DNA of 36,549 bases, from positions 1 to 36,549 of the forward strand of contig WJLY01000224.1 of NCBI GenBank assembly GCA_014728245.1, read 5' to 3'. Position numbers and translations under genes: made by a program. Under the pieces are notes generated by a model. The model was not told the origin of the DNA. It ran no database searches and was given only the letters and a program-made list of their open reading frames with translations. Positions 8,211 through 33,212 of the stretch are shown here, piece by piece. This stretch comes from Candidatus Effluviviaceae Genus IV sp. (lineage in GTDB: Bacteria; Joyebacterota; Joyebacteria; Joyebacterales; Joyebacteraceae). How positions within the stretch are numbered: position 1 is the stretch's first letter; every line of letters starts with the position of its first letter.

Positions 8211-8230
8211 TTCGTATACCTCCGCCCCTG

Positions 8231-8677: not shown

Positions 8678-8743
8678 CTTCGTGCCTTCCCCGGCCGGAG
8701 CGGCCGTGCCGCCCGCGGCCTGCTAGTACCAGAAGCCCGTCGT

Positions 8744-9580: not shown

Positions 9581-9832
9581 TACTCTGGTTCTCCTCCCGT
9601 GCAACGTCCGGACGCCTCTCTCCGCGCTCCGGACATGCCTACGGCCACGTCTGCCGAATACACGTCTGAAACACTAGGGCCAAAGGTTCGCTCGCGCCTA
9701 CCTCCTGAGTTTCGTTCTTCCTTGAACAGCTTTACGGGGGGATGAGATCACGCAAGGCGCCCCGCGTGCCTGGCCGACCGGGACGTGAGACGTCCGGGGG
9801 TCGCCCTGCAATCCAACCTGTTCAGAGGAGGG

Positions 9833-14709: not shown

Positions 14710-14793
14710 GTAAGCTCTCCTTTCGCCCCTCTCCCCGAGCGCGTCCAAGAGCCGCTCCCAGGGTCCATCAGAAGCCTGGTCGTGATCGACCTG

Positions 14794-15765
14794 CTAGAAC
14801 TGGAGACTCAGGCCGACCCTGTGGACGGCGCCAAGGTAACCGAAGTCCGAGTAGCTGTAGTCGACGCCAAGTCTGCCCAGCGCGCCGACCGTGACCCTGG
14901 CTCCGCCGCCGGCGGTGAAGGTCTCCTCGTCGTAGTTCAGCTTGTAACCGGCGCGGAGGAAGTACGTCCTGTTCAGACTGTACTCCGCTCCGACGTTTAT
15001 CTTCTCCGACGTGTCGGACGGGTGCTTGAACTCCGTCGCGACCTTCACGGTCTGGCCGGGCGTCTCGAAAACGTTCATCGAAACACCGAACTTGAACGTG
15101 GCCGGGACCGGAACCGACTCGTCTATGTAGGCCGCCTCCGCACCCATGTTCTGAATGCACAGTCCTATCCTGAGCGAACGGAAGCCCGTATTGTAGAGTG
15201 TGCCGAAGTCGCCGACGACCGTGTCAACGGAGTAGTCCGCCAGCCCGTACTCACCGAGCGTGGACAGGTCGCCCAGACTCGAGTGCACCCAACGGAGCGT
15301 GCCGCCGGCGGAGAATCTGTCGGTGAAAACCCGCGTGTAACTGACACCGACGGCGATGTCGCCGGGCTCGAACTCAACGCCCACTCCGTTCGGGTTCGTG
15401 GCGGTCCTGACAAGCATGGGATCCATGGACAGCGTCGTTACGCTCACCCCGACGATCCCCGGAATGAACCCGGGCTCCATAGCAACACCCACGAACTGGT
15501 GTGTTATGTCGGCCGGCCAGGTCCCGTAGCTGAACAGAGCTGTCGGGCCCGACAGATGCCTCAGGCCCGCCGGATTCCAGTAGAGCGACTCTATGCCCTC
15601 CGACGCCGCCACCATCGCCTCACCCATCGCAACACCACGAGGGCCCGCGCCGATCTCGAGGAACTGAAACCCCACCGTCCCCACCTTCTCGAATATCTCG
15701 GTAGACGACGCCTGCGGCGCCGAGAGAGCGAGGATCAGGAGCAGTAGCGGGAGCTTCTTCAGCAA
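14794..15765 (-). CDS. PorV/UPF0164-like outer-membrane protein (second copy)
   Basis: 'FLEIGAGPRGVAMGEAMVAASEGIESLYWNPAGLRHL' signature. TTG start at 15765 preceded by AAGGAGG. Confidence 0.88.
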   Translation of the reverse strand: MLKKLPLLLLILALSAPQASSTEIFEKVGTVGFQFLEIGAGPRGVAMGEAMVAASEGIESLYWNPAGLRHLSGPTALFSYGTWPADITHQFVGVAMEPGFIPGIVGVSVTTLSMDPMLVRTATNPNGVGVEFEPGDIAVGVSYTRVFTDRFSAGGTLRWVHSSLGDLSTLGEYGLADYSVDTVVGDFGTLYNTGFRSLRIGLCIQNMGAEAAYIDESVPVPATFKFGVSMNVFETPGQTVKVATEFKHPSDTSEKINVGAEYSLNRTYFLRAGYKLNYDEETFTAGGGARVTVGALGRLGVDYSYSDFGYLGAVHRVGLSLQF

Positions 15766-15822
15766 GTGCGGTCCTCCTTCCACCTTCCGGTCGCGATACG
15801 GCCGGACCGTACGGCAACACGA

Positions 15823-18144
15823 CTACTTGATGATGACGAACTTGCCCACCTTCTCTCCGACGGGCGAGTCCACGTGGTAGAGATAGACTCCGCTTGTGAC
15901 GATCTGGTTGTTCCGCGAGATGAGGTTCCAGCACGCGTCTCCGCCGGTCTCCTCGGCCTCGGGGTAGAGCGTCTCGACCAGCTCCCCGCCCAGTGAGTAG
16001 ACCCTGACCACCGCGTCTCTCGGCAGGTTCATGAAACAGATCTTCTCGCCGGTCGGGTCTGCCTCGTCGGGCTCAAGGTTCCAGGCAGCGATGTACTCGT
16101 TGTCGACGTAGGGATTGGGCACGACCATCACGTCGTCGACGTCGGCCTGCACCGCGGAGTGCGGGACCACCCTGGTCATGTTCTGCGAATACTTGCCGAA
16201 GTGCTTCCCCTCCGCCGTGCTGTCGTAGGCTGTCACGGAGTAGAAGTAGGGAAACCCGTTCCTCACGAGCGAGTCCACGATGCTGTACTTGCCGACCCCT
16301 TCCAGGCCGGTGTCCCACTCGTCTATCTCCGCGTAGTTGTCGCTCCTGTCGATGTCGAGGATCAGCTCCCAATCCTGGTCCTTCGGCTCTGTGGAGGTCC
16401 TGTCCCAGCCGACCGCCTTCCAGACCTGGTAGCCGTACCAGTCGCGCACGCGCGTCAGCGGGTCCTCGATCTCCTCCGGGCTGTCGTCCCAGTCGATTCG
16501 TACGAAGTGGTCGCCGGCAGTGACCTCCTGCCTCGGCGGAGGAGGCGGGGTGTCGGCGACCCAGTGGATCAGCGTGCTCTCCGGGTCTCCCGTGCAGGTC
16601 GTCACCGGCTGGATGATCCCGTCGAAGATCTGCTGCGCCTTGGCCGCGTTCTCCAGCATGCCCGCGAGGCCCTGGCCGCAGACGAACGCGTACTGGAACT
16701 CGAGCGTGTCGCCCGGCGCCACCTCCTGGAAAGGCCCGGCTGAGAGCATGAAACGGTAGTCCTGCGGCGTCTGCGCGTTGCGGTCGATGTTGATACGCCA
16801 CTCGTCGTCGTCCTCGAGGTCTACAAGGCCGTCGAGATCGTTGTCCTGACCGTCGTACTCCGGGAAGTCCGGGCTCTCCGGACCGCCAGGACCATCCGGG
16901 TCCATGCCGCGCAGATAGCGGTAGCGGTCCCGGTCGTCGTCGGGGTCCTCCGTGCCGCTCGACCAGATCTCGAAGGCGTGCACGCGCACCTGGGTCGGAG
17001 CGTTGGGCAGGCCGTCGTCGCCGTAGTACTTCTGCACGAGCGACTCTGGCCAGTCCGGCTGGAGGACAGGAACGGTCGGATGACCCAGGAACATGCAACC
17101 GAAGTACCCCTTGGCTACGTTGCCGTCGGGGCCGAAGGGATCGTCATACATGTACGCGATGCTCATATTGAGCGTGTCCGACAGGTTCGGGTTGTTCGGG
17201 TTCACGCTCACGATCGTCGTGTCTACGAAGCCGCCGGCGTCGTCCGTGTACCACGGAACGTCGTCGGACTCCGGCCCCGCGTCCGCGTCGACCATGAAGC
17301 CGACGTAGACCATCTTCAGGACGTCCTCGCTGATGTTCACGACCTTGTAGTTTATACCCACGAAGTCATCGGTCAGCTCGCTCGTCCACTGGTAGCTCTC
17401 CTGGATGACCTTGAGTCCGAGCGCCGTGTGCTCGTCTCCGGGCTGCGCGTTCTCATTGACTTCCTCTTCGTAGATGTCGTAGTACTCCATCCGGAACATC
17501 TGCTGAGAGATCGCGGCGAAGTCCTCATCGACCAACCCGTCGCCGTCGTTGTCGATGCCGTCCAGCGGATCCTCGTCGACCCACAGGAAGGGATCGAAGC
17601 CCGGCAGGTCGGGATCGCAGTTGTGGTCCGCCCAATCGCCGTCATCGTCAAAGAGACGGCCGCTGTTGGCCGCGCCCTCCCACGTCTCGTAGATCCTCGC
17701 ATCGAGATCGTCCGGATCGGGATAGAACTCGATCTGGTAAACCGCGGCCGACACCAGCGTATCGGGATCGGCGGAGCTTCCGGTTATGGCTCCCACCCAG
17801 AGCCCGCCGGCGTACAGGTACTGGTTGTTGCTGCCCGCGGGCCACTCGGCCGACGGCGCGGTGAGGTCGGCGTCGAAGTCCCCGAAGAAGCCGTAGTTGG
17901 ATACGTGAAGAAGCAGCTGCCCCACGCTGTGATACCAGCCCGTGAACTGGATGATCCGCGAGGAGAGGTCCTCCTGCACGGCTTCATACCGTTCCCGGTC
18001 GGTAGTGCTCATCCTCGCGTCGGCCACGCTTGCGAGGGTCGCGACGACCAGCGCAACGCAGGCCGCGAGCACGAGACCTGCTAGAAGGCGCTCCGCTCGC
18101 CCGGGAGCGCCGCCGACTCTGCCACCGACGTTGCCAAGAATCAT
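15823..18144 (-). CDS. Secreted protein with T9SS type A-like C-terminal sorting domain and Ca-binding-like Asp-rich loops
   Basis: Signal peptide/TM; 'DGIDNDGDGLVDEDF' and 'DGQDNDLDGLVDLEDDDEW' loops; C-terminus 'DAVVRVYSLGGELVETLYPEAEETGGDACWNLISRNNQIVTSGVYLYHVDSPVGEKVGKFVIIK'. Confidence 0.83.
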   Translation of the reverse strand: MILGNVGGRVGGAPGRAERLLAGLVLAACVALVVATLASVADARMSTTDRERYEAVQEDLSSRIIQFTGWYHSVGQLLLHVSNYGFFGDFDADLTAPSAEWPAGSNNQYLYAGGLWVGAITGSSADPDTLVSAAVYQIEFYPDPDDLDARIYETWEGAANSGRLFDDDGDWADHNCDPDLPGFDPFLWVDEDPLDGIDNDGDGLVDEDFAAISQQMFRMEYYDIYEEEVNENAQPGDEHTALGLKVIQESYQWTSELTDDFVGINYKVVNISEDVLKMVYVGFMVDADAGPESDDVPWYTDDAGGFVDTTIVSVNPNNPNLSDTLNMSIAYMYDDPFGPDGNVAKGYFGCMFLGHPTVPVLQPDWPESLVQKYYGDDGLPNAPTQVRVHAFEIWSSGTEDPDDDRDRYRYLRGMDPDGPGGPESPDFPEYDGQDNDLDGLVDLEDDDEWRINIDRNAQTPQDYRFMLSAGPFQEVAPGDTLEFQYAFVCGQGLAGMLENAAKAQQIFDGIIQPVTTCTGDPESTLIHWVADTPPPPPRQEVTAGDHFVRIDWDDSPEEIEDPLTRVRDWYGYQVWKAVGWDRTSTEPKDQDWELILDIDRSDNYAEIDEWDTGLEGVGKYSIVDSLVRNGFPYFYSVTAYDSTAEGKHFGKYSQNMTRVVPHSAVQADVDDVMVVPNPYVDNEYIAAWNLEPDEADPTGEKICFMNLPRDAVVRVYSLGGELVETLYPEAEETGGDACWNLISRNNQIVTSGVYLYHVDSPVGEKVGKFVIIK

Positions 18145-18225
18145 CCACTACCTCCGTGGAGTGCTGCCATTGCACGTATCCTCCTGCCCCGGACACCGAA
18201 GAAGCGGCGTCCAAGGCGATTCCCG

Positions 18226-20985
18226 TTACCAGTCTATCGCTATACCCACTTTGATGAGACGACCCTCTCCGAAGACGGAAGGGTCTTGCAGAGGCTCGAG
18301 AACCTGGTTCTCACCCTGGGTCTCCAGATAGGCGCCGCCGAGGTTGCCCGTCTCGGTGTAGTACTCCGCGCCGTAGTAGCCGAGACGCCGGACGTTCTTC
18401 TTGTCGAACACGTTGAGCGCCTCGAAGAAGAGACGGAACTCCTGGCCGTACAGCTTGTACTTCTTCGTCCCCCTCAGGTTCAGGAGCTGGTGAGAGGGAA
18501 GCCTGCCCGAGTTGATCGTCTCCGGGGGAATGTCCTTCTGGCCGACGAATGTCGGAGTGTAGGGAGTACCGCTCCCGTAGTTGTAGTCGAAGGTCACCTC
18601 CCAGTTACCGGGATCGCTCACGAAGAGGAAACCGGTCACAGTATGGCGCTCATCCCAGTCGAGAGGGATCTCCTGCAGCGGCTGCTGCCAGCCCTCCGCC
18701 GCCGCCTGCGCGCCCTGGTTCGGGTCCGAGGACACCCCCGTGGCCTGCAGCCACGTGTAGGTCATGTTGCCCGAGAAGAAGTTCGAGAACCGCTTGGTCA
18801 GCTTGAACTCTATGCCCCGAACCGTGGCGTAGTCCTTGTTGACGTACAGGTACCACTCCGCCGTCGGGTCCTCCTCGGACGTATATGACTCGGTCGCAAG
18901 CAGGCCGAAGATGTCCTTGTAGAAACCGGTGACATCCATCGCCAGGTTCTGTGAGAACTGGTGCTCCGCGCCGAACTGGTACGAGACCGTCACCTCGGGC
19001 TCGAGCTCAGAGGACCCGATGATCCGTCCGACGGTGGCGCCCGTAAGCTCCTCGTTGGCCTCGTAGTACGCCGTCAGGTGAGGCATCTGATAGAAACGGC
19101 CGTAGTGGAAGTGCAGCGCGTCCCTGTCGGAGATCGGATGCGCGATGCCCAGCCTGGGAGAAAGAACCGCGCTGATCCGCTCCCTCCAGATCTGACGCTC
19201 TCCCACGCCGGACTTGGACCCCGGATCGGACCAGTCCAGCCTGAGCCCGGCGCGCACGATCATGCCCTCGTACCTCATCTTGTCCTGGAGGTACATTGCG
19301 CCGTGCGTCGGGAAGGCCTCGTAGATGTTGTGCTCGAACCTCTGATCGGTGTAGAGAGCCTCGTCCCAGTCGAAGAACTGGAACCCCTCCTCCTCGGCCT
19401 CGCCCTCGCTGGGAATGATGCTGCCGAGCGAGAGCTCGGTAACGTCGAGATGGTTGTAGACGAACTCGAGACCCGACTTGAGCTGGTGCGTGTCGTTGGG
19501 CTGATTGGTGACGTCCGCCTTGAAGGTGGTCGTCCTGGTGGTGCTCTCCGACCAGCCCAGATTGTCTCCCCACGTACGGTAGTAGCCGGGTTCCTGGTTC
19601 AGGTCGTTGTCGGAGTCGTGGTCGAGCGTGTTCTCGCGCCAGCCGCCCATGTACGGCTCCCACCAGTAGTCGTTCGGGTCTTCGTAGAGCCACCACTTCT
19701 CTTCCGACTCGAATTGCGCGAGCTTCAGCGTGTAGAACGTCGTCGGGCTGACGTTGTCTCTCCAGACGATCTTCTGCTGGGTGAAGCTGGTCCTCTGCGT
19801 CGGCGTGTGCTCCGCCGCGTTGTAGTACTGGTAGGTCGAGTCGAGACGGACGTGCGACCAGTCCTTGTACTCCGGCGACCAGTACCCCTCGCGCGAATAC
19901 GAGTGACTGTAGTTGTCCCTCACCGTCCGGGAATGCAGGAACTCGCCCGTGAGCTTCTGAGTCGGCGAAACGAAGTACGAGAGCTTCACCTGGCCCGAAC
20001 CCAGCATCGACTGGCGCTCCCGCGCATCGATGCTCAGAAGCTCGGTGTCGCCCACGGAGAGATCCCACGAGTGAATCGGCCTGTTCTCGTTGGTCCTCAG
20101 GTACGTGTCGCTGAAACGCCCCTCTCCCGACACGTAGTAACGCAGCTTGTCGGTGAAGAGCGGACCGCCCATGCCGAACGAGAGGTTGTCGTAGTTGTTA
20201 TAGGTCCGCTCGGGCGCGCCGTAGTCGTCGGTCATGTACTTCACTTCGCCCGAAAACTCGCGGCCTCCCTCCCTCGTCTGCAGGTTGATGACGCCCGACT
20301 GGACGTTCCCGTACTCGGCGTCGAACCCGCCTGACAGAAGCTCGAACTCGGAGAGCGATGAGAGGCTTACCTCGAGGTTCGACGTTCCGGTGGCCGCGTT
20401 GGTGACCGCCATGCCGTCGACGTACATCTTCACCTCGGAGGAACGACCGCCTCGGACGTGGATCTCGCCCTCGTGCAGAACGACGCCCGGCTGGGTCGCC
20501 ACCGCCTCCTGAACCGTGTTGATCGGGCGGACCTTCACCTCCTCCTCATCCATCCCTCGGCGGGTCGTCGTGTCCTCGGTCTCGATCATCGGCCTCTCGG
20601 CCTCGACGACGACCTCCTCGGCCACGATCGCCTCTTCCCTCAGGGCGAAGTCGACCTCTACGGTGCGGTCGGCCTCCACCACGACGTCCGTTATCTGTTG
20701 CTCGGCGTAGCTGATGAACGTCGCCTTCACAACGTATGTGCCGACCGGTACGAAGTCGATGGAGTAGTAACCCTGGGCGTTGGCCATCGCCCCGTAGGGA
20801 GTTCCCATCACAGTCACGTTGGTGTATCCGAGAGGCTCCCCGGTCGAAGCGTCGGTCACGCGACCCGCGATAGTCCCTGTGGCCTGGCCCATTGCGGGCG
20901 CGGCCGTCAGGAGAACCGCCAGAACGAGAAGCGAACCGAGTGCCACTGGGGCGCACTTCCGGGACTTCAGTCTCGGCGCATTCAT
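18226..20985 (-). CDS. TonB-dependent receptor with N-terminal carboxypeptidase-regulatory-like domain and plug
   Basis: 'GTIAGRVTDASTGEPLGYTNVTVMGTPYGAMANAQGYYSIDFVPVGTYVVKATFISY', plug 'VQEAVATQPGVVLHEGEIHVRGGRSSEVKMYVDGMAV', long Tyr/Trp-rich barrel. Confidence 0.93.
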   Translation of the reverse strand: MNAPRLKSRKCAPVALGSLLVLAVLLTAAPAMGQATGTIAGRVTDASTGEPLGYTNVTVMGTPYGAMANAQGYYSIDFVPVGTYVVKATFISYAEQQITDVVVEADRTVEVDFALREEAIVAEEVVVEAERPMIETEDTTTRRGMDEEEVKVRPINTVQEAVATQPGVVLHEGEIHVRGGRSSEVKMYVDGMAVTNAATGTSNLEVSLSSLSEFELLSGGFDAEYGNVQSGVINLQTREGGREFSGEVKYMTDDYGAPERTYNNYDNLSFGMGGPLFTDKLRYYVSGEGRFSDTYLRTNENRPIHSWDLSVGDTELLSIDARERQSMLGSGQVKLSYFVSPTQKLTGEFLHSRTVRDNYSHSYSREGYWSPEYKDWSHVRLDSTYQYYNAAEHTPTQRTSFTQQKIVWRDNVSPTTFYTLKLAQFESEEKWWLYEDPNDYWWEPYMGGWRENTLDHDSDNDLNQEPGYYRTWGDNLGWSESTTRTTTFKADVTNQPNDTHQLKSGLEFVYNHLDVTELSLGSIIPSEGEAEEEGFQFFDWDEALYTDQRFEHNIYEAFPTHGAMYLQDKMRYEGMIVRAGLRLDWSDPGSKSGVGERQIWRERISAVLSPRLGIAHPISDRDALHFHYGRFYQMPHLTAYYEANEELTGATVGRIIGSSELEPEVTVSYQFGAEHQFSQNLAMDVTGFYKDIFGLLATESYTSEEDPTAEWYLYVNKDYATVRGIEFKLTKRFSNFFSGNMTYTWLQATGVSSDPNQGAQAAAEGWQQPLQEIPLDWDERHTVTGFLFVSDPGNWEVTFDYNYGSGTPYTPTFVGQKDIPPETINSGRLPSHQLLNLRGTKKYKLYGQEFRLFFEALNVFDKKNVRRLGYYGAEYYTETGNLGGAYLETQGENQVLEPLQDPSVFGEGRLIKVGIAIDW

Positions 20986-22044: not shown

Positions 22045-22725
22045 CTACGGGATGATGTGCAGCCAGTCTGAAAGCAGGAACTGCATCCTGCCGATCAGGA
22101 GCGACACCCTTCCCATCACCGTGTAGCCGAACGACGCTCCGAAGGCCACCATCAGGAACCAGATGCCTAGCCTCGCGAACCCACCCAGCGCGCCCTTGTG
22201 CTCCTTCGAGAAGAAGAAGTAGGTCAACACGGCGAAGACGCCGATGATCGCGGACAGGTTCAGGATGATCGCTAACGGCCCTCCCTCGTTCAGGGGGGTC
22301 GTCATGGTCGCGTGGATCTGCCGCACGAAGTCGCCCTGCCCGAAGCCGGTGATGTTGATCGCGGAGTACATTCCGACGATGAACCCGAGCGACCAGCGGG
22401 AGAGCCAGGAGAGCTTCGGGAAGAACCGGAACAGCATGAAGATCGCGAGTATCCCGGGGAAGATCCTCAGCCACTGGACCGGGTCCTCTCCAGACATGAA
22501 GAGCGGCTCAATGAGCTTGGGGACGAGGGTCTCATGGTACAGGAGGCACAGCCAGTAGGCAGCGCCCAGGCCGACGAAGAGGCTCTCGCCGAACTTGTAG
22601 AGCGGGTTGTCCTTGTACAGGAAGCTGTAGATCGAGAGCGTGAGGATAGCCGCTACCCAGTAGCCCCATACGACCGATGCGGGCGTCCCGGGCGGACCAC
22701 TGAAGACGAGTTCCAACCAGCTCAT
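22045..22725 (-). CDS. Module 2 gene D': polytopic membrane protein of unknown function
   Basis: 'AILTLSIYSFLYKDNPLYKF' and 'RLGIWFLMVAFGASFGYTVMGRVSLLIGRMQFLLSDWLHIIP' shared with 25557..26402. Confidence 0.85.
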   Translation of the reverse strand: MSWLELVFSGPPGTPASVVWGYWVAAILTLSIYSFLYKDNPLYKFGESLFVGLGAAYWLCLLYHETLVPKLIEPLFMSGEDPVQWLRIFPGILAIFMLFRFFPKLSWLSRWSLGFIVGMYSAINITGFGQGDFVRQIHATMTTPLNEGGPLAIILNLSAIIGVFAVLTYFFFSKEHKGALGGFARLGIWFLMVAFGASFGYTVMGRVSLLIGRMQFLLSDWLHIIP

Positions 22726-22735
22726 GCCACTCTCC

Positions 22736-23581
22736 CTACGCCGCTCTCTCCGAAGCCCTGCGCCGTCCGGAGATGAAGTACGCCAGGTTGCCGAGGAGTA
22801 TGAAGACGACGATCATGGCGTGCACGATCGACTGCGCGTCCATCCCGCTCGTGGCGTCGCCCGGCGCCCCGATCAGCGTCTCGTACTCCGCCGCTCCCTT
22901 GAGCCCGCCCAGCAGCCCCACGAGCTGCTTGCTCTGCACGTAGGGATAGAAGTTCGGCGCGCCCACCGCGGTCGTTCCCGAGCCAAGCGTCACCTGGAAG
23001 CGACTCTGCACCTGCTGGACCCACTCCCGCGTGCCGGGCGTCCCGGCGGAGACCTCCATCACCATCGCTATGTCGTCGAAGTTCCGCACATCCCGCATGA
23101 TCGGGAGTTCGCGCACCGGCGTGCCGCCGTAATCGGACGGGAACGTGTTGGGAATGCTCGCGCCCATACCCAGAAGCGTCACCGTACCGCCGGCCATGTA
23201 CCCGAGGTTGACGTAATCGACTCCGTAGTCCTTGCCGTACTCCTCTGCCAGCGGATTGAGCGCCGCCTCGACGAGCGGCGGCGATGCCGGCCACAGACAG
23301 GCGACGACCAGGCGGAGGTCCTTCTCGAAGGCGTGCCTGATGAACGTCTCCACCATCGGCTGCAGCTCCGGCATCGTGTCGGGGCTGTAGTCCCCGGCGA
23401 GCATCACGATCGAGCCCTCGGGAACCGCCTCCACGGCGTCGTAGATGCCCTGCACGGGCGGGGAAACGTCGATCGGCAGCCTCATCGGTTGTATGAGAGG
23501 CCACGCCACGGCCAGGAAGATCAGCGCGAAGATGATCCTGCGGTCGATCCTGCCGATGGCGGCGGTCTTCGACTTGGCCAT
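22736..23581 (-). CDS. Module 2 gene C': bitopic membrane protein with extracytoplasmic domain, unknown function
   Basis: N- and C-terminal TMs flanking a soluble domain. 'GMDAQSIVHAMIVVFILLGNLAYF' aligns with C 'GMDSQSIIHMLIILLIVIGNVAYF'. Confidence 0.85.
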   Translation of the reverse strand: MAKSKTAAIGRIDRRIIFALIFLAVAWPLIQPMRLPIDVSPPVQGIYDAVEAVPEGSIVMLAGDYSPDTMPELQPMVETFIRHAFEKDLRLVVACLWPASPPLVEAALNPLAEEYGKDYGVDYVNLGYMAGGTVTLLGMGASIPNTFPSDYGGTPVRELPIMRDVRNFDDIAMVMEVSAGTPGTREWVQQVQSRFQVTLGSGTTAVGAPNFYPYVQSKQLVGLLGGLKGAAEYETLIGAPGDATSGMDAQSIVHAMIVVFILLGNLAYFISGRRRASERAA

Positions 23582-23595
23582 TGACCGGACTCCCC

Positions 23596-24240
23596 CTACT
23601 TCTCACCGCCGAGATACGAGCGCTCGATTCCGAGTATGATGCGGAGGCCCATTGCCATGACGCCCAGGGCTGCTCCCATGAGAATGCCGCGGAAGGCCGC
23701 CATATTCGGATAGCCCATGATCGTCTCCGTCAGCCACGGAAGTGTCGCCTTCTCCGGAAGGGTCCTCGTCATCCACTGGCCGATGGGGACACGCCCCAGC
23801 ATCACGATGATCGCCGCCACCAGCAGCAAGCCCGCCTCCGCCGACCGCAGCCTGAACGCCCTGTAGGCGGCCGACGCGATGAAGAAGGCCAGAAGCGAGA
23901 ACATCGTGGCCTGGAGCGGCACCTGCATGTTCATGAACATCCAGTTGAAGGGCGAGCCCTCCTCGATCGTACCCCACGGCCCACCGAAGCCGAACATCAC
24001 GGCCATCGCGATGAGGGTGACGATGCTGTATCCCCAACCCTCGCTCTTTCTGCGGATCTTATGGTAGTGGACACGCAGGAGATTGCCCCAGCCGAGCAGG
24101 ATCGACGCAGCAATGACGATCGTGCCCCACTGCTTCATCTCCTCGGCGAGGCCGGAGACCCTGTGATAGGGCACGAAGAAGTCGACCAGCATGAAGATGC
24201 CGATCAGGAAGGTGATTGCCAGCGGTATCTCTCGTCTCAT
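23596..24240 (-). CDS. Module 2 gene B': six-TM-like membrane protein, unknown function
   Basis: 'HYHKIR', 'QATMFSLLAFFIASAAYRAFRLRSAEAGLLLVAAIIVMLGRVPIG' shared with 27340..27969. Confidence 0.85.
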   Translation of the reverse strand: MRREIPLAITFLIGIFMLVDFFVPYHRVSGLAEEMKQWGTIVIAASILLGWGNLLRVHYHKIRRKSEGWGYSIVTLIAMAVMFGFGGPWGTIEEGSPFNWMFMNMQVPLQATMFSLLAFFIASAAYRAFRLRSAEAGLLLVAAIIVMLGRVPIGQWMTRTLPEKATLPWLTETIMGYPNMAAFRGILMGAALGVMAMGLRIILGIERSYLGGEK

Positions 24241-24253
24241 CTCCGGTCCTCAG

Positions 24254-25468
24254 CTACAGCGTTTCGAACCAACTCACAAACGCGTCCCAGCCCACCAGGT
24301 TGGCGACGACACCTGCGCCCATCAGCGCGATCGAAAGCGCCTTCATCCAGTCGGAGCCCTTGAGGCTGCCGAGGAGCTTCGGCTCCCTCGACAGGTAGGC
24401 GCTCGCCGCGTACAGCTCCTCGCCCATCAGAGTGAAGTCGCACGCAGTCACGAAAAACGGAAGCTGCGACACCATCGCCGTGCCGGCCACCTGTATGGCG
24501 CCGGCCTCGAAGCCGGTCTCGGCCAAAAGCAGCGACTCCGCCCAGAAGGCGCCCAAGTACAGGTTCGCCGCGGGCTTCTCCCTGAGCATGATGCCGTTCA
24601 CCGCCGCCGCGAAGGCGAACTGCGCGTCCGACAGGTAGCGGATGTTGTCCCGGTTGTACGCGTCCGGGTGGCCCGCCTCGGCGTAGGCCTCCTTGACGAC
24701 CTCCTCCGCCGCCGACATCACGACCGCCCTCGCGGTCGGGACGATGAGCGGCGTCTCGTAGCGGGCCGTGATCTTCGCCACGTGCGAGAGGATCGTCAGG
24801 CTCGCGATCGTCATGATGTTCTCTATCTCGCCGATGCCGGGAACGTACAGCACCGGCCTACCCATTTCGGTCGCCCTCCCCACCGCCTCCTCGATCGCGT
24901 TCAGTCCGGGTATGCGCCGCACGAAGAGCGACACGCCCTTCCGCGCGAGCCGGGTGAAGATGAGGACGAGAGCGAAGAACGTGGTCATGAGCACGAAGAC
25001 CGAGGTTCGCCTCGGTTGCCAGAAGCTCGCCCTCCCCCGGACGGGACCGGCCGTGGCCGGCTCAGACACATTGCCGGAGTCTATGGCGTACACCGAGTAG
25101 AAGTACGGTTCGCCGGGCTCCGCATCCCTGTCGACGTAGTAGTCCGTTCCGGCGGGGACGACGCCCACCGTATCGCCCGGGGCGCCGGCCGACTTCGATC
25201 TCATTATGACGTAGCTCAGCACGTCGGCTTCCCCCGCGCCGTCGTCCGCGGAGGGCGTCCATGAGAGCTGGATCTTGTTCCCGGAGTCATTGTCGCCTAT
25301 GTGGTCGCTTGCGGACGCCCGGGTGGGCGGCGCCGGCGGAACCGTATCAGCAGCGGCATCGGCGATCTCGAGAAGCTCCTCGACGTCGATGCCCGCGTCC
25401 TGCGCCGCCGCCATGCAGGTCGCCGCCGGAATAAGAAGCGTGGTGCAGAATGTAGTGAGGAGGTTCAT
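24254..25468 (-). CDS. Module 2 gene A': FN3-like extracytoplasmic domain + TM + conserved cytoplasmic domain (DUF6754-like from memory)
   Basis: Signal peptide, FN3-like segment, TM, 'LFVRRIPGLNAIEEAVGRATEMGRPVLY...LPFFVTACDFTLMGEELYAASAYLSREPKLLGSLKG', C-terminal TM. Confidence 0.82.
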   Translation of the reverse strand: MNLLTTFCTTLLIPAATCMAAAQDAGIDVEELLEIADAAADTVPPAPPTRASASDHIGDNDSGNKIQLSWTPSADDGAGEADVLSYVIMRSKSAGAPGDTVGVVPAGTDYYVDRDAEPGEPYFYSVYAIDSGNVSEPATAGPVRGRASFWQPRRTSVFVLMTTFFALVLIFTRLARKGVSLFVRRIPGLNAIEEAVGRATEMGRPVLYVPGIGEIENIMTIASLTILSHVAKITARYETPLIVPTARAVVMSAAEEVVKEAYAEAGHPDAYNRDNIRYLSDAQFAFAAAVNGIMLREKPAANLYLGAFWAESLLLAETGFEAGAIQVAGTAMVSQLPFFVTACDFTLMGEELYAASAYLSREPKLLGSLKGSDWMKALSIALMGAGVVANLVGWDAFVSWFETL

Positions 25469-25556
25469 TGCCCGTCCGCGCTCCGGACTAGTTCATCGAA
25501 CCGGGGCCGACTCGCGCCTCGCGAGGTCGCAGAGCAGGCTCTGCCGCCCCGCCCCG

Positions 25557-26402
25557 TCAGTCCACGAGATGCAGCCAGTCGTGAAGAAGGAAGCCTACTC
25601 TGCCGATCAAGAGCGAAACGCGGGACATCACCGTGTATCCGAACGACGCCCCGAAACCAACCATCAGGAAGACGATGCCCACGCGGGCCAGCCCGCCCAG
25701 AAGTCCACGGTGCCGCATCGAGAAGAAGAAGTACGACAGAGTGCCCAGAAGACCGATCACGAGCAGCACGTTGGTCATCGTCACGACGCCCGCGCTGGTC
25801 AGAAGCGACAGCACGACGTAGCCGGCGTACGCTATCACCGCCGCGAGAACGACGGCGACGACGCGCAGGATCTTGTTCCCCGCTCCGATGCTGCGCTTCA
25901 CGACGAAGAGATAGGTCATGACGGCGAATATCACCACGCCGAGCGCCACGTTCGACATGTTCGCCATCGCCGCCGACTCATCCACGCCCGCCAGAGGAAG
26001 CCCGTTCGCGCCGAGCTGCCTGATCACGCGGGCCTGCATGACGGGCGATATCCCGAGTCCCGCGTATCCGCCGACGTATATTCCGAGCGGCCAGCGTCCC
26101 ACCCATGCGACCTTGGGGAAGAACCGCATGTAGAGAAGGAGCCCCAGGAGCCCCGGGACGAACGCCATCCACCACGCGCCGCTCAAAAAACCGATCGACT
26201 CGTCGCCGACTCTGAGAAGGAACACGGGAGCGACGACGTTCGGACTGATATAGTTCCAGTAGTAGATGACCAGATAGTAACCCGCGGAGACCCCGACGAC
26301 GAGATGCTCGGCGAACTTGTAGAACGGATTGTCCTTGTAGAGGAAGCTGTAGATGGACAGCGTCAGGATCGCCCCGATCGTTGTCCAGAAGAGCTCCGCC
26401 AT
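25557..26402 (-). CDS. Module 1 gene D: polytopic membrane protein of unknown function
   Basis: 'AILTLSIYSFLYKDNPFYKF' and 'RVGIVFLMVGFGASFGYTVMSRVSLLIGRVGFLLHDWLHLVD'. Paralog of 22045..22725. Confidence 0.85.
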   Translation of the reverse strand: MAELFWTTIGAILTLSIYSFLYKDNPFYKFAEHLVVGVSAGYYLVIYYWNYISPNVVAPVFLLRVGDESIGFLSGAWWMAFVPGLLGLLLYMRFFPKVAWVGRWPLGIYVGGYAGLGISPVMQARVIRQLGANGLPLAGVDESAAMANMSNVALGVVIFAVMTYLFVVKRSIGAGNKILRVVAVVLAAVIAYAGYVVLSLLTSAGVVTMTNVLLVIGLLGTLSYFFFSMRHRGLLGGLARVGIVFLMVGFGASFGYTVMSRVSLLIGRVGFLLHDWLHLVD

Positions 26403-26454
26403 CGATTCCTCCGCTCGATCTGCCTGAACTGCGGCCCGGCCGTCATCACCGGTC

Positions 26455-27297
26455 TCACGCAGTCTTCTTCTCGGATTTCCGCGTAGCGAAGTACGCCACG
26501 TTGCCGATCACGATGAGCAGGATGATCAGCATGTGGATGATCGACTGCGAGTCCATACCCCGCGTTCCCTGGTCCGGCTGCTCTATGAGCGCCTCGTATT
26601 CGGCCGCTCCACGCATACCGCCAAGGAGCCCCTCCAGCTGATCGGCGCCCAGATACGGATAGTAGTCCGTGGCCATGACGGCGGTCACGCCCGCGGCGAC
26701 CATCTGCCCGTAGGGCTCGTGGGCGTAGTAGATCCACGACTCGGCGTAGGCGGAGCCCGCCAAGGTTATCACAAGCGGGATGTCGTCGTAGTTGCGAACG
26801 CCGTCCATGACCGGAAGTCGGGTCAAGGCCGTTCCGTATGCGTCCTCGGGGAACGCGTTCCTTATGTTCACGCCCATGCTCAGGATGACCGCGGAGATCC
26901 CGGGCTGGAAGCCCAGGAAGACGTAGTCCTCGCCGTAGACGCGGTCGTACTCCTCGGCGGCCTGCAGGAGGGCCCGCTCGGCCAGCCCGTAGCCGGCCGG
27001 GTGAAGCGTGATGACGACGACATTGACGTCGTTCTCGAACGCGTGGCGCAGAAGCGCCAGCGTCATCGGTTCCAGTTCCGGAAGCGTCGCCGGCGCGTAG
27101 TCTACCGACAGCAGCAGCGGCTGCGAGTTTGCTGGCAGGCTGTCCATCTTCTCGTAGAGCCTCTGCACGGGAGAGGTCACCGTCACGGGCAGCCCCAGAG
27201 GCAAGATGAAAGGCACGACCACTGCGATGGCCACGAGCAGGAAGATCCACCTGCGGTCGACCCTGAGGATCTTGTCGAATATGGTGTTGCCTTCCAT
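26455..27297 (-). CDS. Module 1 gene C: bitopic membrane protein with extracytoplasmic domain
   Basis: N-terminal 'RRWIFLLVAIAVVVPFILPLGLPVTVTSPVQRLYEKMDSLP', C-terminal TM. Paralog of 22736..23581. ATG at 27297 preferred over TTG at 27300. Confidence 0.84.
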   Translation of the reverse strand: MEGNTIFDKILRVDRRWIFLLVAIAVVVPFILPLGLPVTVTSPVQRLYEKMDSLPANSQPLLLSVDYAPATLPELEPMTLALLRHAFENDVNVVVITLHPAGYGLAERALLQAAEEYDRVYGEDYVFLGFQPGISAVILSMGVNIRNAFPEDAYGTALTRLPVMDGVRNYDDIPLVITLAGSAYAESWIYYAHEPYGQMVAAGVTAVMATDYYPYLGADQLEGLLGGMRGAAEYEALIEQPDQGTRGMDSQSIIHMLIILLIVIGNVAYFATRKSEKKTA

Positions 27298-27339
27298 CAA
27301 ACTCTCCCGAAGAGCGGGCCTGAGCGCCGCGCGGTCGAC

Positions 27340-27969
27340 CTAGTCGCGTCCGCCCATCCACGCCCGCTCGATACCGAGCACGATCTTGAGCGCCGTCGCC
27401 ATCATCCCTAATCCCACACCGATGAGTATCCCGCGCTTCGACGCCATGTTGGGCACCTCCAGGATCCACCGCGTCGCCACGGGTATCTGATCATGTATGA
27501 GTTCCCCAAGCGGCACGCGGCCCAGCATGACCACCGTCGCCGCCACGAGAAGCAGCGTGGCCTCGAGCGTCCTGGCCTTGAACGCGCGGAAGGCCGCGGA
27601 CGCGACGTAGAACGCCAGGAGCGAGAACATCGTCGCCTCGATCGGTACCTGAACGTTCTGGAACATCGCATCGAAGGGCGAGCCCGGGGAGTGGTGCGCC
27701 GGGTGGAAGAAACCCAGCCCGATCATTGCCGCAAGCCCGATGAGCGCGACGAAACTGTAGCCGCGGTCGTCCGCCCTGTTCCTGATCTTGTGATAGTGGA
27801 GCTTTATCAGACTGACAGTCCCCAGCAGGAACGCGAACGCCAGCAGAGTCATGAGCCACGAGAGCAACCGTTCCTGGAAGTCCTGCACGGCAGAGTGTGG
27901 GATGAAGTACTGGACCGCCGTGAAGACGCCGGCTATGAAGCAGAGCATGAGAGGGACCTGTCGGCGCAT
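27340..27969 (-). CDS. Module 1 gene B: six-TM-like membrane protein
   Basis: 'KLHYHKIRNRADDRGYSF', 'EATMFSLLAFYVASAAFRAFKARTLEATLLLVAATVVMLGRVPLG', 'RGILIGVGLGMMATALKIVLGIER'. Confidence 0.85.
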   Translation of the reverse strand: MRRQVPLMLCFIAGVFTAVQYFIPHSAVQDFQERLLSWLMTLLAFAFLLGTVSLIKLHYHKIRNRADDRGYSFVALIGLAAMIGLGFFHPAHHSPGSPFDAMFQNVQVPIEATMFSLLAFYVASAAFRAFKARTLEATLLLVAATVVMLGRVPLGELIHDQIPVATRWILEVPNMASKRGILIGVGLGMMATALKIVLGIERAWMGGRD

Positions 27970-27992
27970 CTGCTCAATCCTCTATGCGAGAG

Positions 27993-29246
27993 CTAGCCCG
28001 TCATATAGAGAGGGGCCATGAAGTCTGAAGCTATGACGTCGGTCGCCGCGAGCGTGGCCACGATGAAGCCTATGATCAGGAGGACGCCCACGATGAACTT
28101 GGCCGTGTCCTGTCCCTTGAGCCCGCCGAGGAGCACCGGCTCCCTCGACAGGTAGGCGCTCGCCGCGTACAGCTCCTCGCCGATGATCGTGTAGTCGCAA
28201 GACGTGATGAAGAAAGGAAGCTGCGTCACCGCGTCCGTGCCCGCGATCTGAATCGAACCTACGGACGCGCCGGTCTCGGCCAGCACCAGCGACTCGGCGA
28301 AGAACATGCCCATGTAGAGAATCGTGGCCGGGCGCTGTCGGACCATGATGCCGTTCACGCCGGCCACGTATGCGAACTGGCTTCTCGTCAGGTAGAAGAC
28401 GTCGTCCTCGCTGTAGGCCTCGGGTCGTCCCACCTCCGCGTAGGCCTCACGCACGACCTCCTGCTCGACCGCCATGACGATCGGGTCGGCGCAGGGGACG
28501 ATCAGCCTCGTGTTGTACTCGGCCGTCTTCTTGGCAACCTCGCCAAGAATATTGATGGCCGCGATCGTGGCCACATCCGAGATCGACGACAGCCCGCTGA
28601 TGTAGAGGATCGGCTTCCCCATCTCTGTGGCGCGGCCCACCGCGTTCTCGAGCTCGTCGAGGCCTGCAAGGCGCCGGATGAAGAGCTCCTTGCCCGCGCG
28701 GGCCGAGTTCACGAAGTAGACGATCGCCGTCACGAAGATGATGACGCCGATCAGGACGTTAACCCGGTCGGTGTTAAACCACTGGGGGAACGACGAGGTC
28801 GGACCCGCGATCTCCGAGAACGCGTAGCTCTCCCCGTCTGTGGCGGCGACCCTGTGGTAGTACTCGAGATCGTTGTCGAGACCGGTGTCCCTGTACTCCG
28901 TGATACCGGGAGGCACTCTCCCCGCGAACGCGAACCCCGTGTCAGGATCGGTCGTCCGGTAGATCTCGTACGAGACGATCTCGCCCTCCGGCTCGTCTAC
29001 GGATGGCTCCCATGAGACCACCACGGCGCCGCCGCGGTCGTTCTCCGCGTCGACCGACACCAGGCCGGTCGGCGGAGCGAACGTCGGAGCCGCTACGGTG
29101 TCCGCCTTGACGTCCTCCACGTCGGCCTCGTCCTGGGCGAACACGCCCGCCGGACACAGAAAGAGGGCCGCGAGCGCCAGGAACAAGGCGAATACGGCCC
29201 AACCGGCGGATCTTGCAGGGGTCGAGCGCTCCCCGTCTGCGAACAT
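27993..29246 (-). CDS. Module 1 gene A: signal peptide + FN3-like domain + TM + conserved cytoplasmic domain
   Basis: 'PTGLVSVDAENDRGGAVVVSWEPSVDEPEGEIVSYEIYRTTDPD...YYHRVAATDG' FN3 pattern, then 'LFIRRLAGLDELENAVGRATEMGKPILY...LPFFITSCDYTIIGEELYAASAYLSREPVLLGGLKG'. ATG at 29246 with AAGGA upstream. Confidence 0.84.
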   Translation of the reverse strand: MFADGERSTPARSAGWAVFALFLALAALFLCPAGVFAQDEADVEDVKADTVAAPTFAPPTGLVSVDAENDRGGAVVVSWEPSVDEPEGEIVSYEIYRTTDPDTGFAFAGRVPPGITEYRDTGLDNDLEYYHRVAATDGESYAFSEIAGPTSSFPQWFNTDRVNVLIGVIIFVTAIVYFVNSARAGKELFIRRLAGLDELENAVGRATEMGKPILYISGLSSISDVATIAAINILGEVAKKTAEYNTRLIVPCADPIVMAVEQEVVREAYAEVGRPEAYSEDDVFYLTRSQFAYVAGVNGIMVRQRPATILYMGMFFAESLVLAETGASVGSIQIAGTDAVTQLPFFITSCDYTIIGEELYAASAYLSREPVLLGGLKGQDTAKFIVGVLLIIGFIVATLAATDVIASDFMAPLYMTG

Positions 29247-29269
29247 CAACCATTCCTTTCGCTAGTCAC

Positions 29270-29421: not shown

Positions 29422-30549
29422 TCACCGCTCGATCATCTCCACGTTGGCGCGCGGCAGCAGCACCTCCTGTCCGTCGTCCAGCTTCACGGAGAGAACGCGC
29501 ACCATCGTCTCGGACTCCATCTTCCGGAGCTCGTTCGGCAGATCGACGACCTCGCCCAGGCTCCCGAAGTTCGGCTCGCGGATCACCCTGATCCTGCTCC
29601 CGACGTCGAGCCCCATCGAGGCGACGTGACCCTTCTCGACCTCCTCCTTCCGAACGCCCTCCAGTGGAACCACTATCTCGGGCCTGATGACTCCGGCTCT
29701 TATCTGGGTCGCGCCGTTGATCGACGCCTTGCGCCCCTCGCGCGACCTGAGAAGGTCGAACGTGGCCGGGGCCATGGACATCTCGCCGAAACCCTCTGTG
29801 AGGATCAGCGTTGAGCGAAGGTCCTCCTGCCCGGTTATGGCCACGCCGATGTCTTTCCCGAGAAGCTCCCGGAGATCGGGATCGTCGAATCCGCCGACCA
29901 CGACGCCCGACGCGCCGACCTCCATCGCTCTCTGCAGCGCATCCCACGTCACGTGAGATCCGCCGACGAGCACCTTGTCCTCGCACGAACCGTCGATTCG
30001 CGAGGCGTCGAGCGGATCGGCCGGCCCGTCAACGAGGACCTTGATCTCCCCGGTCCGCTCTCCGCCGACGCCGAAGATCCCCTGGATGAATGAGCCGACC
30101 GTCTCGACCACGACTCCCTCTTCCTCGATGATGTCCACCACCTTGCCGTCGATGTAGGCGTCAATCTCGATGGGGGTCGGAGGCTCGCGGAAGATCGCCT
30201 GCCCGGTGATCTTCGAGACGCTCTCGAGCGTACCATCGCACGGCGCCGGCACTCTCGACTTGAACAGCCCGAAGAATCCCTGCGTCTCCGCGACCGCCTC
30301 TCCCTTCCCCACCTTCTCCCCGTCCTCCTTCTTCATCACGGTCGGGAGATCCTCCGCGGGAATGCCGAGCTTGCTCGCAATATTGAGAAGCTGCACGTTG
30401 CCCGGAAGGTGCGTGCGGGCGACGACCGTGTCCGACCTGACATCGTCGCCCTTGTTGACTAGGACTTCTCCCTTGATGGGCAGCCTCCGGTCCTTCCTGA
30501 AGACCGTGAGCTCGGCCACCTTGAGTCCCGGTGTGTACGCGTGTGCCAT
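29422..30549 (-). CDS. Barrel-sandwich-like + KOW-like domain protein, unknown function
   Basis: 'RLPIKGEVLVNKGDDVRSDTVVART', 'SRVPAPCDGTLESVS', 'IDAYIDGKVVDIIEEEGVVVETVG' repeats. C-terminal 'GSRIRVIREPNFGSLGEVVDLP...VRVLSVKLDDGQEVLLPRANVEMIE' KOW-like. Confidence 0.82.
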   Translation of the reverse strand: MAHAYTPGLKVAELTVFRKDRRLPIKGEVLVNKGDDVRSDTVVARTHLPGNVQLLNIASKLGIPAEDLPTVMKKEDGEKVGKGEAVAETQGFFGLFKSRVPAPCDGTLESVSKITGQAIFREPPTPIEIDAYIDGKVVDIIEEEGVVVETVGSFIQGIFGVGGERTGEIKVLVDGPADPLDASRIDGSCEDKVLVGGSHVTWDALQRAMEVGASGVVVGGFDDPDLRELLGKDIGVAITGQEDLRSTLILTEGFGEMSMAPATFDLLRSREGRKASINGATQIRAGVIRPEIVVPLEGVRKEEVEKGHVASMGLDVGSRIRVIREPNFGSLGEVVDLPNELRKMESETMVRVLSVKLDDGQEVLLPRANVEMIER

Positions 30550-30621: not shown

Positions 30622-32424
30622 CTACTCGGTCGGGTAAGCGTCGAACGCCTTCGCCCAGCGCTCCAGCCTGGCGATGCGCTCCTTCTCGTCGGTCGGGAGC
30701 TCGAACGGCCTGCCCCTCGTGTCGACCATGAGGCCCACGACTCCGCCCGACACGGTGCGTTCGACCGGCTTCGCCGGCCCGTCTCCCAGATCGAAGCCGC
30801 GCGCCGGCGAGAGCTTGATCTTCGCCTTCTCGTCGATACCCAGCGGGTAGGCCCGCATCTCGCCGTACGGGATCTCCTCACTGACGCTCGATCCGTCGGG
30901 CATCGTCGCCTCGATCTTGACACACGGCTTGCCCTCCTGTGACGTCCCCACCGGGGCGATCAGCGGTCCCAGATGTATCAGGCAGTCCTTCTCGAAGACC
31001 TCGGTGGCCGCCTTCTGGTGGACCTCGGCGAGCACGCCGAGCTGCGGCATCATGAAGATCGAGTCGACCGCCAGCCTGGTTATGCCCTCAGGCAGGAAAC
31101 CGTCGATCAGCATCATGGCCGCCTGCTGCCTCCTGGGCGCGTGCGAGAGGACCCCGCCGGACCCCACCAGGATGTCCAGGTCCATCATGTCGACGAGCGT
31201 AGCGCCGGACGACGACTGGTCGAAGGCCTCCGAGATCGTCCTCTCCTGCTGCACACCCTTCAGGCTCACCGCGAACGACTTGTGCTGCTCGAAAGCGAGC
31301 CTCAAGGCCTCCCTGGCAATCGCCTGCTCGAGCTTGAGGTCGCCGAGCGCCTGAGGAACGGTCGTCGGCCGGATCATCTTGTTCTTGATCCGGTTCCGGA
31401 CCTCCAGCTCGCCCAGACCGAACGGGACCCACCTCATCACGTTCTCGATCCCCGCCTCGGCCAGCACGTTCGAGACCGAGTAGCTCATGCCGAGGTTGGC
31501 GGAGACCGTCCTGTTGAACGTATCCTTGAAAACGGAGAATACGTCGGTCGTGGCGCCGCCGATGTCGACTCCGACCGCCTCGATCCCCTGCTGCTTGGCG
31601 ATCGTCTCTATGAGCGAGCCGACCGCGCCCGGAGTGGGCATGATGGGAGCGTCGGTCCAGCCCATCAGCTTGTCGTACCCCGGCGCCTGGGCCATCACGT
31701 GCTCCATGAAGAGATCGTGTATCTTGTCCCGCGCCGGCCCCAGGTTTTCGCGCTCGAGGACCGGCCGGAGGTTCTCCACGTTGTAGAGCACGGTCTTTTC
31801 CTCGAGGAGCTTCCCGACCTCCTCACCGGCGTCGACGTTGCCCGCGTAGATGACGGGCAGGTCGTAGCCCGTGCCGAGCCGCGGCTTCGGATCGGCGGCC
31901 GATATGATCTGCGCAAGCTCGACCACGTGGGTGATGGTGCCACCGTCGATGCCCCCGGAGAGGAGGATCATGTCGGGCCGGAGGTGGCGGATGCGCTCGA
32001 TCTGCTCGTGCGCCAGCCTCCCGTCGTTCGAGGCGAGCACGTCCATCACGATCGCACCTGCGCCGAGCGCCGCGCGCTGCGCGCTCTCGGCCGTCATGCT
32101 CATCACGACGCCCGCCACCATCATCTGCAGGCCGCCTCCCGCGCTCGAGGTCGAGACGTAGAGATCGACGCCCCGCTCTCCGTCGTTCGGGTGTATGATC
32201 TTCTCTCCCTCGAGGACCTCGTGTCCCGAGAGCTCCTCCACCTCCCGGATCGCGTTCAACACTCCTCGGGTCACGTCCTCGAAGGGCGCCTCCACCGTGG
32301 TGGGGGCCTCTCCCCTAACGATCAACCTGTACTCGCCGTCAACGAGCTTGATCAGGATCGCCTTCGTCGTTGTGCTGCCGCAGTCAGTGGCGACGATCGC
32401 TCTGACCTTGCCGTTCTCACTCAT
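30622..32424 (-). CDS. GlmL/MutL (glutamate mutase L) family ASKHA protein
   Basis: 'ATDCGSTTTKAILI' (phosphate 1), 'GVDIGGATTDVFSVF' (phosphate 2), 'VGSGGVLSHAPRR' (adenosine-type motif). ATG at 32424 with GGAAGG upstream. Confidence 0.9.
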   Translation of the reverse strand: MSENGKVRAIVATDCGSTTTKAILIKLVDGEYRLIVRGEAPTTVEAPFEDVTRGVLNAIREVEELSGHEVLEGEKIIHPNDGERGVDLYVSTSSAGGGLQMMVAGVVMSMTAESAQRAALGAGAIVMDVLASNDGRLAHEQIERIRHLRPDMILLSGGIDGGTITHVVELAQIISAADPKPRLGTGYDLPVIYAGNVDAGEEVGKLLEEKTVLYNVENLRPVLERENLGPARDKIHDLFMEHVMAQAPGYDKLMGWTDAPIMPTPGAVGSLIETIAKQQGIEAVGVDIGGATTDVFSVFKDTFNRTVSANLGMSYSVSNVLAEAGIENVMRWVPFGLGELEVRNRIKNKMIRPTTVPQALGDLKLEQAIAREALRLAFEQHKSFAVSLKGVQQERTISEAFDQSSSGATLVDMMDLDILVGSGGVLSHAPRRQQAAMMLIDGFLPEGITRLAVDSIFMMPQLGVLAEVHQKAATEVFEKDCLIHLGPLIAPVGTSQEGKPCVKIEATMPDGSSVSEEIPYGEMRAYPLGIDEKAKIKLSPARGFDLGDGPAKPVERTVSGGVVGLMVDTRGRPFELPTDEKERIARLERWAKAFDAYPTE

Positions 32425-32800
32425 CCGCACCTTCCTTAAGCGCTTTCGCGGCGCGACGCTCCTCGCGCCTTCGTTTACGCTCCTCGCGCTCCTTCTTGCG
32501 GCGCTCGGACTCCACTTCCTCTATCTTCAGAAGGAGATACTCGATGTTCTCCCTTTCCTCAAGTATCTCGATGAACTCGTCGTAGGTCTTGAAGTTGAAG
32601 ATCGACTGCACGATCGGCTGGAAGAATATGAGCGCCTGGTTCCCGAGAAACGAGAGCGGCTTGGCCGACTCCAGGAACAGTATCGCGGGCGCCGTCATCC
32701 TCCATTCCACTATCCTGGCGGCGAAACGATCCATGATCTCCCGGTGCTCCGGGCGGGGGCGCTCCTCATTGCTCCTGTCCTTCATCGCCCACATCGGCAT
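32417..32800 (-). CDS. Small protein with hydrophobic segments and a highly charged coiled-coil-like C-terminus
   Basis: 'TAPAILFLESAKPLSFLGNQALIFFQPIVQSIFNFKTYDEFIEILEERENIEYLLLKIEEVESERRKKEREERKRRREERRAAK'. Overlaps the glmL start; start codon among 32800/32794/32785 is uncertain. Confidence 0.72.
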   Translation of the reverse strand: MPMWAMKDRSNEERPRPEHREIMDRFAARIVEWRMTAPAILFLESAKPLSFLGNQALIFFQPIVQSIFNFKTYDEFIEILEERENIEYLLLKIEEVESERRKKEREERKRRREERRAAKALKEGADE

Positions 32801-33212
32801 CGGTCTCTCTCCGCCTCTCCACCATCTTCCTCACGAACTCGATCACTTCTTCGCGGTTGTCGTGGAACTGCAGCGACAACCCTCTGAACCTGGCCAGCCT
32901 CGACGGCTCCTCGAACGGGGAGAGCAGCACTCCGTCCTCGTCGACCGAGTAGCTCCTGAAGTCGCTCCAGCGCTTCTCCCTCTTCGACACCACTCCCTTG
33001 ACCGACACCGTCTCCTCGGTCAGCTCATACCGGGTGGGGAGGAAGAACCCCGCCACCTGCCCCCAGACCAGAGCCACCGCGACGATCGTGAAATAGCCGG
33101 CGTTGAGCCAGGTCTGGAGGAACCACGCCGTCAGTACGACGAAACCTATCGCGACCGCCGCCCTGAGCGGGTGAAGCACCATCGGCCATGAGCGCCAGGA
33201 GAGCGGCTCCAC
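32766..33212 (-). CDS. Two-TM membrane protein with PH-like domain, unknown function
   Basis: 'LRAAVAIGFVVLTAWFLQTWLNAGYFTIVAVALVWGQVAGFF' hairpin then 'TRYELTEETVSVKGVVSKREKRWSDFRSYSVDEDGVLLSPF'. GTG start 3 bp after the gcvPB stop. Confidence 0.72.
   Translation of the reverse strand: MEPLSWRSWPMVLHPLRAAVAIGFVVLTAWFLQTWLNAGYFTIVAVALVWGQVAGFFLPTRYELTEETVSVKGVVSKREKRWSDFRSYSVDEDGVLLSPFEEPSRLARFRGLSLQFHDNREEVIEFVRKMVERRRETDADVGDEGQEQ

Follow-up and report, generated by a model that had tools for sequence, protein, structure and literature searches.

Gene Organization of the Locus

We analyzed a window of 36,549 nucleotides (the whole stretch of DNA), whose minus strand carries, in order, gcvH, gcvPA, gcvPB, a 148-aa membrane protein, a 127-aa protein, a long MutL ATPase, P0001, two cassettes of membrane proteins, and an lplA-like gene (table 1). 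The first-pass annotation had placed a protein of 375 aa at the position of P0001. The open reading frame proved to be real, and its strand was set as minus, the plus strand of 29422–30549 being interrupted by stops. The gene begins with an ATG at 30549, closely preceded by a Shine–Dalgarno-like GAGGAG, and ends with a stop codon at 29422; its orthologs in the window's own small phylum are 66–78% identical. The MutL stop codon lies 72 nt upstream of this ATG, and the gene 3' of P0001 encodes a DUF6754/fn3 membrane protein. Between P0001 and this first DUF6754 copy, a TTGACA-N17-TACTTT sequence was noticed on the minus strand (29351–29323); its −10 element is poor and the promoter scan made no call there. 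As a candidate promoter, it may make the DUF6754 cassette a transcription unit of its own.

Table 1. Features of the P0001 gene cluster in the window (residue numbers refer to P0001)
Feature	Positions	Strand	Basis
P0001 ("BSH"; MutL-partner, 375 aa)	29422–30549	minus	ORF, orthologs, relatives, AlphaFold model
P0001 barrel-sandwich unit, residues 10–124	30178–30522	minus	AlphaFold model, Pfam matches, hhalign
P0001 beta segment, residues 125–175	30025–30177	minus	Model; weak similarity to barrel half 2
P0001 alpha/beta domain, residues 185–298 (approx.)	29656–29997	minus	Model, family alignment
P0001 KOW-like barrel, residues 313–374 (LPRANVEMIE end)	29428–29613	minus	Model, Pfam, Foldseek
Long MutL (602 aa; PF13941 plus C-terminal extension of ~120 residues)	30622–32430	minus	Pfam, motifs
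127-aa protein, charged C-terminus	32417–32800	minus	Conserved neighbor in 24–29 loci
148-aa membrane protein, two hydrophobic segments	32766–33212	minus	Conserved neighbor
DUF6754 copy a: signal-like helix, outside fn3, TM, cytoplasmic alpha/beta domain, TM	27993–29249	minus	Pfam, model, topology scan
209-aa polytopic membrane protein (TM209), cassette copy a	27340–27969	minus	Neighborhood, topology scan
P281 (281 aa), two TMs flanking a domain predicted outside, copy a	26455–27300	minus	Topology scan
Q281, 281-aa polytopic membrane protein, copy a	25557–26402	minus	Neighborhood, topology scan
DUF6754 copy b	24254–25468	minus	Pfam
214-aa polytopic membrane protein, cassette copy b	23596–24240	minus	Neighborhood
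P281 paralog, 281 aa, cassette copy b	22736–23581	minus	Neighborhood, profile
Q281 paralog, 226 aa, cassette copy b	22045–22725	minus	Neighborhood

Domain Architecture of P0001

The AlphaFold model of P0001, built on an alignment of 59 sequences (pLDDT 86.7, pTM 0.75), opens with a barrel-sandwich unit composed of two hairpin halves and a helical insert, with a hydrophobic hairpin tip, GFFGLFKS, at residues 91–98. The two halves resemble each other (hhalign probability 83%, E = 8.5e-6), and residues 125–171 resemble the second half weakly (E = 0.006, probability 6%). Three barrel-sandwich segments had been read from the sequence; the fold stood, but the first two form one bipartite unit and the third is a separate beta segment. 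The alpha/beta segment that had been placed after the barrel is present in the model and terminates in the family signature NGATQIRAGVxRPE. The KOW-like end was likewise borne out, superposing on SPT5 KOW5 (7okx_Z) in Foldseek with a TMt of 0.85 and an rmsd of 1.3 Å.

When P0001 was searched alone, Pfam gave subthreshold matches to RnfC_N (0.007), Biotin_lipoyl (0.05), and FeoA (0.07), and NCBIfam gave none. Across the 59 family members, Biotin_lipoyl was matched by 43 (best 8.8e-7), RnfC_N by 39 (7.3e-8), NQRA_N by 22 (2.7e-6), and KOW by 7, which together with the model supports a barrel-sandwich N-terminus; P0001 itself scored under the curated cut-offs of the first three families (RnfC/NqrA barrel, 16.8 bits vs. 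a cut-off of 25.6). A full-length match to a characterized family had been named as the result that would overturn the proposed architecture. None was found in Pfam, NCBIfam, or the PDB, by sequence or by fold, so the proposal was not refuted; the KOW end was the only part to superpose well on PDB structures. The architecture had also been called unfamiliar, but the family is widely conserved and not rare, and its significance lies in its close linkage to the MutL-type ATPase upstream and the DUF6754 membrane module downstream. Sequence and profile searches of the PDB gave no convincing match for P0001, its family profile, MutL, P281, or the alpha/beta domain, the last having no significant relative by profile. 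A fold search of the viral database BFVD with P0001 returned KOW-type matches only.

Considering that KOW domains and barrel-sandwich hybrids both occur in the transcription apparatus, P0001 might be thought a transcription or translation factor that binds polymerase or RNA as NusG does. Its top fold match was indeed Thermotoga maritima NusG (E = 3e-5), which likewise combines a KOW domain with a beta-rich domain, and the KOW domain common to NusG/SPT5 and P0001 occupies the C-terminal 60 residues of the latter. One family member matched RPOC_hybrid (5.3e-5), and the barrel profile, whose top PDB matches were designed repeat proteins and were regarded as chance, had RNA polymerase β' as its sole sensible, though weak, match (E = 0.1). 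However, the superposition on NusG (2xhc) was not global (TM 0.13, rmsd 18.5 Å), and Pfam gave no match to an NGN domain. KOW domains are known in many proteins outside transcription, fused paralogs of P0001 have no KOW end, and in the genomes P0001 is linked with MutL and a membrane module. We regard a role in transcription or translation as quite improbable.

RnfC and NqrA offer another comparison, as their N-terminal domains (PF13375, PF05896) are barrel-sandwiches without a modified lysine, as in the P0001 family. Unlike them, P0001 shows no Fe–S, flavin, or quinone features, has additional alpha/beta and KOW domains, and is partnered by MutL and DUF6754 instead of Rnf or Nqr subunits; no rnf or nqr genes were seen among the neighbors examined. 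P0001 has two cysteines only, neither conserved, and no 4Fe–4S ligand cysteines. A part in electron transfer, as the likeness to RnfC or to BadF-type activators might suggest, was rejected because no cysteines are conserved.

No Lysine at the Modification Site of the Barrel

The first-pass annotation had taken the barrel to be likely unmodified, and our alignment agreed. P0001 was aligned with lipoyl/biotinyl domains on the V-x-A/S-P motif, the register being set by hand; the Biotin_lipoyl carriers (PF00364), including GcvH, share its barrel class and the hairpin register around the A/S-P-x-D-G turn. In this register, the position of the modified lysine (−5 from V-x-A-P) is Leu or Phe in P0001 orthologs and sits inside the conserved hydrophobic tip, and P0001 differs from the carriers in its extra domains as well. 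With gcvH, gcvPA, and gcvPB upstream and an lplA-like gene downstream, P0001 could be suspected of being an unrecognized carrier of the lipoyl/biotinyl type or a lipoylation helper tied to these genes, and a lysine near the hairpin tip, Lys97, two positions off the modified site, is conserved in 51 of 52 orthologs. Yet the remaining ortholog has Arg at this position, the fused paralogs have Pro there, and gcv genes are absent beside P0001 in the WOR-3, Poribacteria, and Bacillota loci. We regard a carrier or helper role as very unlikely.

Distribution of the Family

A P0001 match was found in 18 of 20 genomes examined from the window's own phylum, including all 13 with a completeness of 90% or more and a contamination of 5% or less. 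A scan of GTDB representatives yielded at least 570 confirmed relatives in prokaryote genomes; none were found in the viral contigs searched. The best 80 of these relatives aligned over essentially residues 1–374 with 54–73% identity and were labeled Eisenbacteria, WOR-3/Stahlbacteria, Hydrothermota, Fermentibacteria/Aegiribacteria, Edwardsbacteria, TA06, Latescibacterota, Neomarinimicrobiota, Poribacteria, UBP2, Cloacimonadota, and some Bacillota (about ten candidate phyla), some of which labels may be binning or naming errors. Around one WOR-3 genome, 55 of 60 sampled genomes had a match, mostly as a single full-length copy. Single-copy and near-universal in whole candidate phyla, P0001 is plainly core to those bacteria, yet neither Pfam nor NCBIfam provides a model for its family. 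The same may be said of its MutL partner as a core protein, since copies from different phyla are 56–83% identical to that of the window.

Association of P0001 with a Long MutL ATPase

The neighbor of P0001 matched PF13941 at 4.4e-127. It shares with the MutL/GlmL family the ASKHA ATPase core, and its motifs are intact: GVDIGGATTD was kept in 25 of 25 sequences and DCGSTTTK in all 21 rows reaching that far, so that the adenosine and phosphate motifs of ASKHA-type ATP binding are present across phyla. It differs from GlmL and OraL in its length (~600 aa), in its C-terminal extension, and in its obligate partner, P0001. The automatic name "glutamate mutase L" would make the pair part of a B12-dependent glutamate mutase system, for which the PF13941 match is the argument. 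This is contradicted by the NCBIfam equivalogs, to which the long MutL scored 229.6 bits against a cut-off of 475 (GlmL) and 220.4 against 600 (OraL), and by the mutase itself: the glutamate mutase E subunit (Met_asp_mut_E) was above its cut-off in 0 of 48 carrier genomes, yet was the immediate neighbor of MutL in four of the six genomes tested that carry the short form. In genomes without P0001, PF13941 matches were mostly of 443–490 aa, the size of GlmL and OraL. We regard a glutamate mutase function as extremely improbable, and the automatic name is misleading for the long form.

The partnership of P0001 with MutL is well supported in the genomes by adjacency, co-duplication, and fusion. 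MutL lay directly upstream of P0001 in 28 of 70 loci from several phyla and was found in 40 of 41 carrier genomes, including those where the genes are scattered. In seven Bacillota carrier genomes, 22 of the 23 long MutL genes shared their contig with a P0001 homolog, and in one of the Bacillota genomes (G051) a P0001 homolog comes after each of the four long MutL genes. In some relatives MutL is fused in one chain to a P0001 paralog that has an extra barrel and no KOW end; it is only in paralogs that a real extra barrel copy occurs. The fused type was also seen as adjacent separate genes at two loci (L130, L132), and the neighbors of the fused genes, compared between genera, were not conserved. 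At L101 and L102 (L133), two MutL–P0001 pairs stand back to back, the first P0001 paralog being longer (open frame of 479–483 aa) with an extra barrel.

The long MutL also matched Hydantoinase_A (4.4e-5) and Hydant_A_N (7e-4) in Pfam. These matches, with the glycine cleavage genes among the neighbors, could point to a soluble ATP-dependent enzyme of the hydantoinase/oxoprolinase type, in which P0001 would be the substrate-handling subunit. We consider this unlikely: the loci showed no HyuB-like partner, the gcv adjacency is confined to some phyla, and the pair co-occurs with membrane proteins, not with a pathway.

Membrane Module and Its Co-occurrence with P0001

The cassette order DUF6754–TM209–P281–Q281 was kept in nearly all complete copies, and genomes contain several copies. 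In the window the four-gene cassette stands twice in tandem (22045–29249); elsewhere up to ten DUF6754 copies were counted (genome G220). The charge distribution around TMs predicted by a simple hydropathy scan places the alpha/beta domain of DUF6754 inside and the P281 domain outside. The DUF6754 model was of moderate quality (pLDDT 78.5, pTM 0.58), and the matches in its fold search were dominated by its fn3 domain. Homology between DUF6754 and P281 was rejected, as the profile comparison aligned a TM segment only. Nothing relevant to DUF6754 or to the gene set described here was found in the open-licence papers searched.

DUF6754 lay directly downstream of P0001 in 22 of 70 loci and was present in 40 of 41 carrier genomes, again including those with scattered genes. 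In one Bacillota phylum in which P0001 is patchy, seven of eight carriers had DUF6754 versus 1 of 48 noncarriers (Fisher p = 2.7e-7); over all carriers tested, P281 was found in 47 of 48 versus 1 of 11 noncarriers (p = 1.9e-9), both p-values treating as independent genomes that are related, with phylogeny ignored. The one P281-positive noncarrier, G129 (C93), is also DUF6754-positive; it is the only genome seen with both and with no P0001 or MutL match, and its assembly is possibly incomplete. As P0001 almost always occurs with an ATPase and four membrane proteins, it is probably, judging from gene content, one part of a membrane machine, and not a carrier of lipoyl or biotin groups. P0001 is separated from both MutL and DUF6754 in many genomes of WOR-3 and Poribacteria, so that the link in those groups rests on co-occurrence among related, non-independent lineages. 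One genome (G119) speaks against a model joining the three proteins, as it keeps P0001 and has no DUF6754, its MutL match being in pieces beside the P0001 homolog (C18, 122881–125366); apparently the MutL–P0001 system is decaying there.

A Shared ATP-Hydrolyzing Module?

Based on these associations, we put forward, as an even call, that P0001 is the dedicated partner subunit of the long MutL ATPase and that the two form a soluble cytoplasmic ATP-hydrolyzing module serving the four-protein membrane module. MutL would bind and hydrolyze ATP, and P0001 would dock on MutL and, with its barrel-sandwich/swivel and KOW surfaces, pass the conformational change on to the cytoplasmic domain of DUF6754. 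The module served would consist of DUF6754 with its cytoplasmic alpha/beta domain, the two polytopic proteins, and P281 with its outside domain, and one or a few MutL–P0001 pairs would act as a shared energizer for several such modules. We infer the physical binding of the pair, the hydrolysis of ATP by MutL, and the action on DUF6754.

The pair may instead act on the membrane complex, or on another enzyme, as an ATP-dependent chaperone, a reactivase, or an assembly factor, which we hold to be possible though rather unlikely. MutL proteins of the GlmL/OraL type adjoin B12-dependent mutases and are called accessory proteins, an established status that favors such a role, and the pairs being fewer than the membrane modules per genome would fit a housekeeping factor too. 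However, the long MutL has no B12 mutase partner, as the absence of the E subunit from the carriers indicates, and where a genome has several modules the pair itself has duplicated and diverged, as would fit dedicated subunits.

If the pair is an energizer, a bolder proposal, which we offer tentatively and think doubtful, is that the long MutL and P0001 are the engine shared by membrane machines of a new class, perhaps transporters, whose four-subunit DUF6754 module is driven by an ATPase of the ASKHA fold and not by one of the ABC, P-type, or rotary kinds. Such a class would extend across many candidate phyla and some Bacillota. In ECF-type transporters, one ATP-hydrolyzing module is shared among several membrane components, which likewise occur in several copies per genome. 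The likeness to MutL–P0001 is one of analogy only: the present system has no ABC ATPase and has different membrane proteins, and a transport role is speculative. No counterpart of the P0001 architecture or of the gene system was found in Pfam, NCBIfam, the PDB, BFVD, or the open-licence papers searched; the folds of the parts are known, and the novelty is that of the system. The data unite scattered hypothetical proteins in a single system that can be tested, made up of a named ATPase, its partner, and four membrane components.

Speculatively, the module might be a transporter for amino acids or peptides. Leads in this direction are the gcv genes upstream in several phyla and the peptidase genes beside the Bacillota cassettes, which were not above control. 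These cassettes are often flanked by peptide or amide hydrolases (TldD/PmbA, C26, M3, M20, S9, GGT, DUF885, and amidase; loci L152, L154, L155, L157, L160, L163, L165, L168, L169, and L138). A peptide-utilization hypothesis drawn from these neighbors was suggestive and was set aside, hydrolases being found in 10 of 33 cases versus 4 of 20 in the in-locus control (p = 0.53).

Elsewhere in the window, as read from translations, two MacB-like permeases, an ABC ATPase, and HlyD/MacA-like and TolC-like genes stand in a row at 258–6143, apparently a tripartite efflux set. At 7115–9604 and 13726–20985 there are TonB-like and ExbB-like genes, two paralogous outer-membrane PorV-like proteins, and a TonB-dependent-receptor-like protein.
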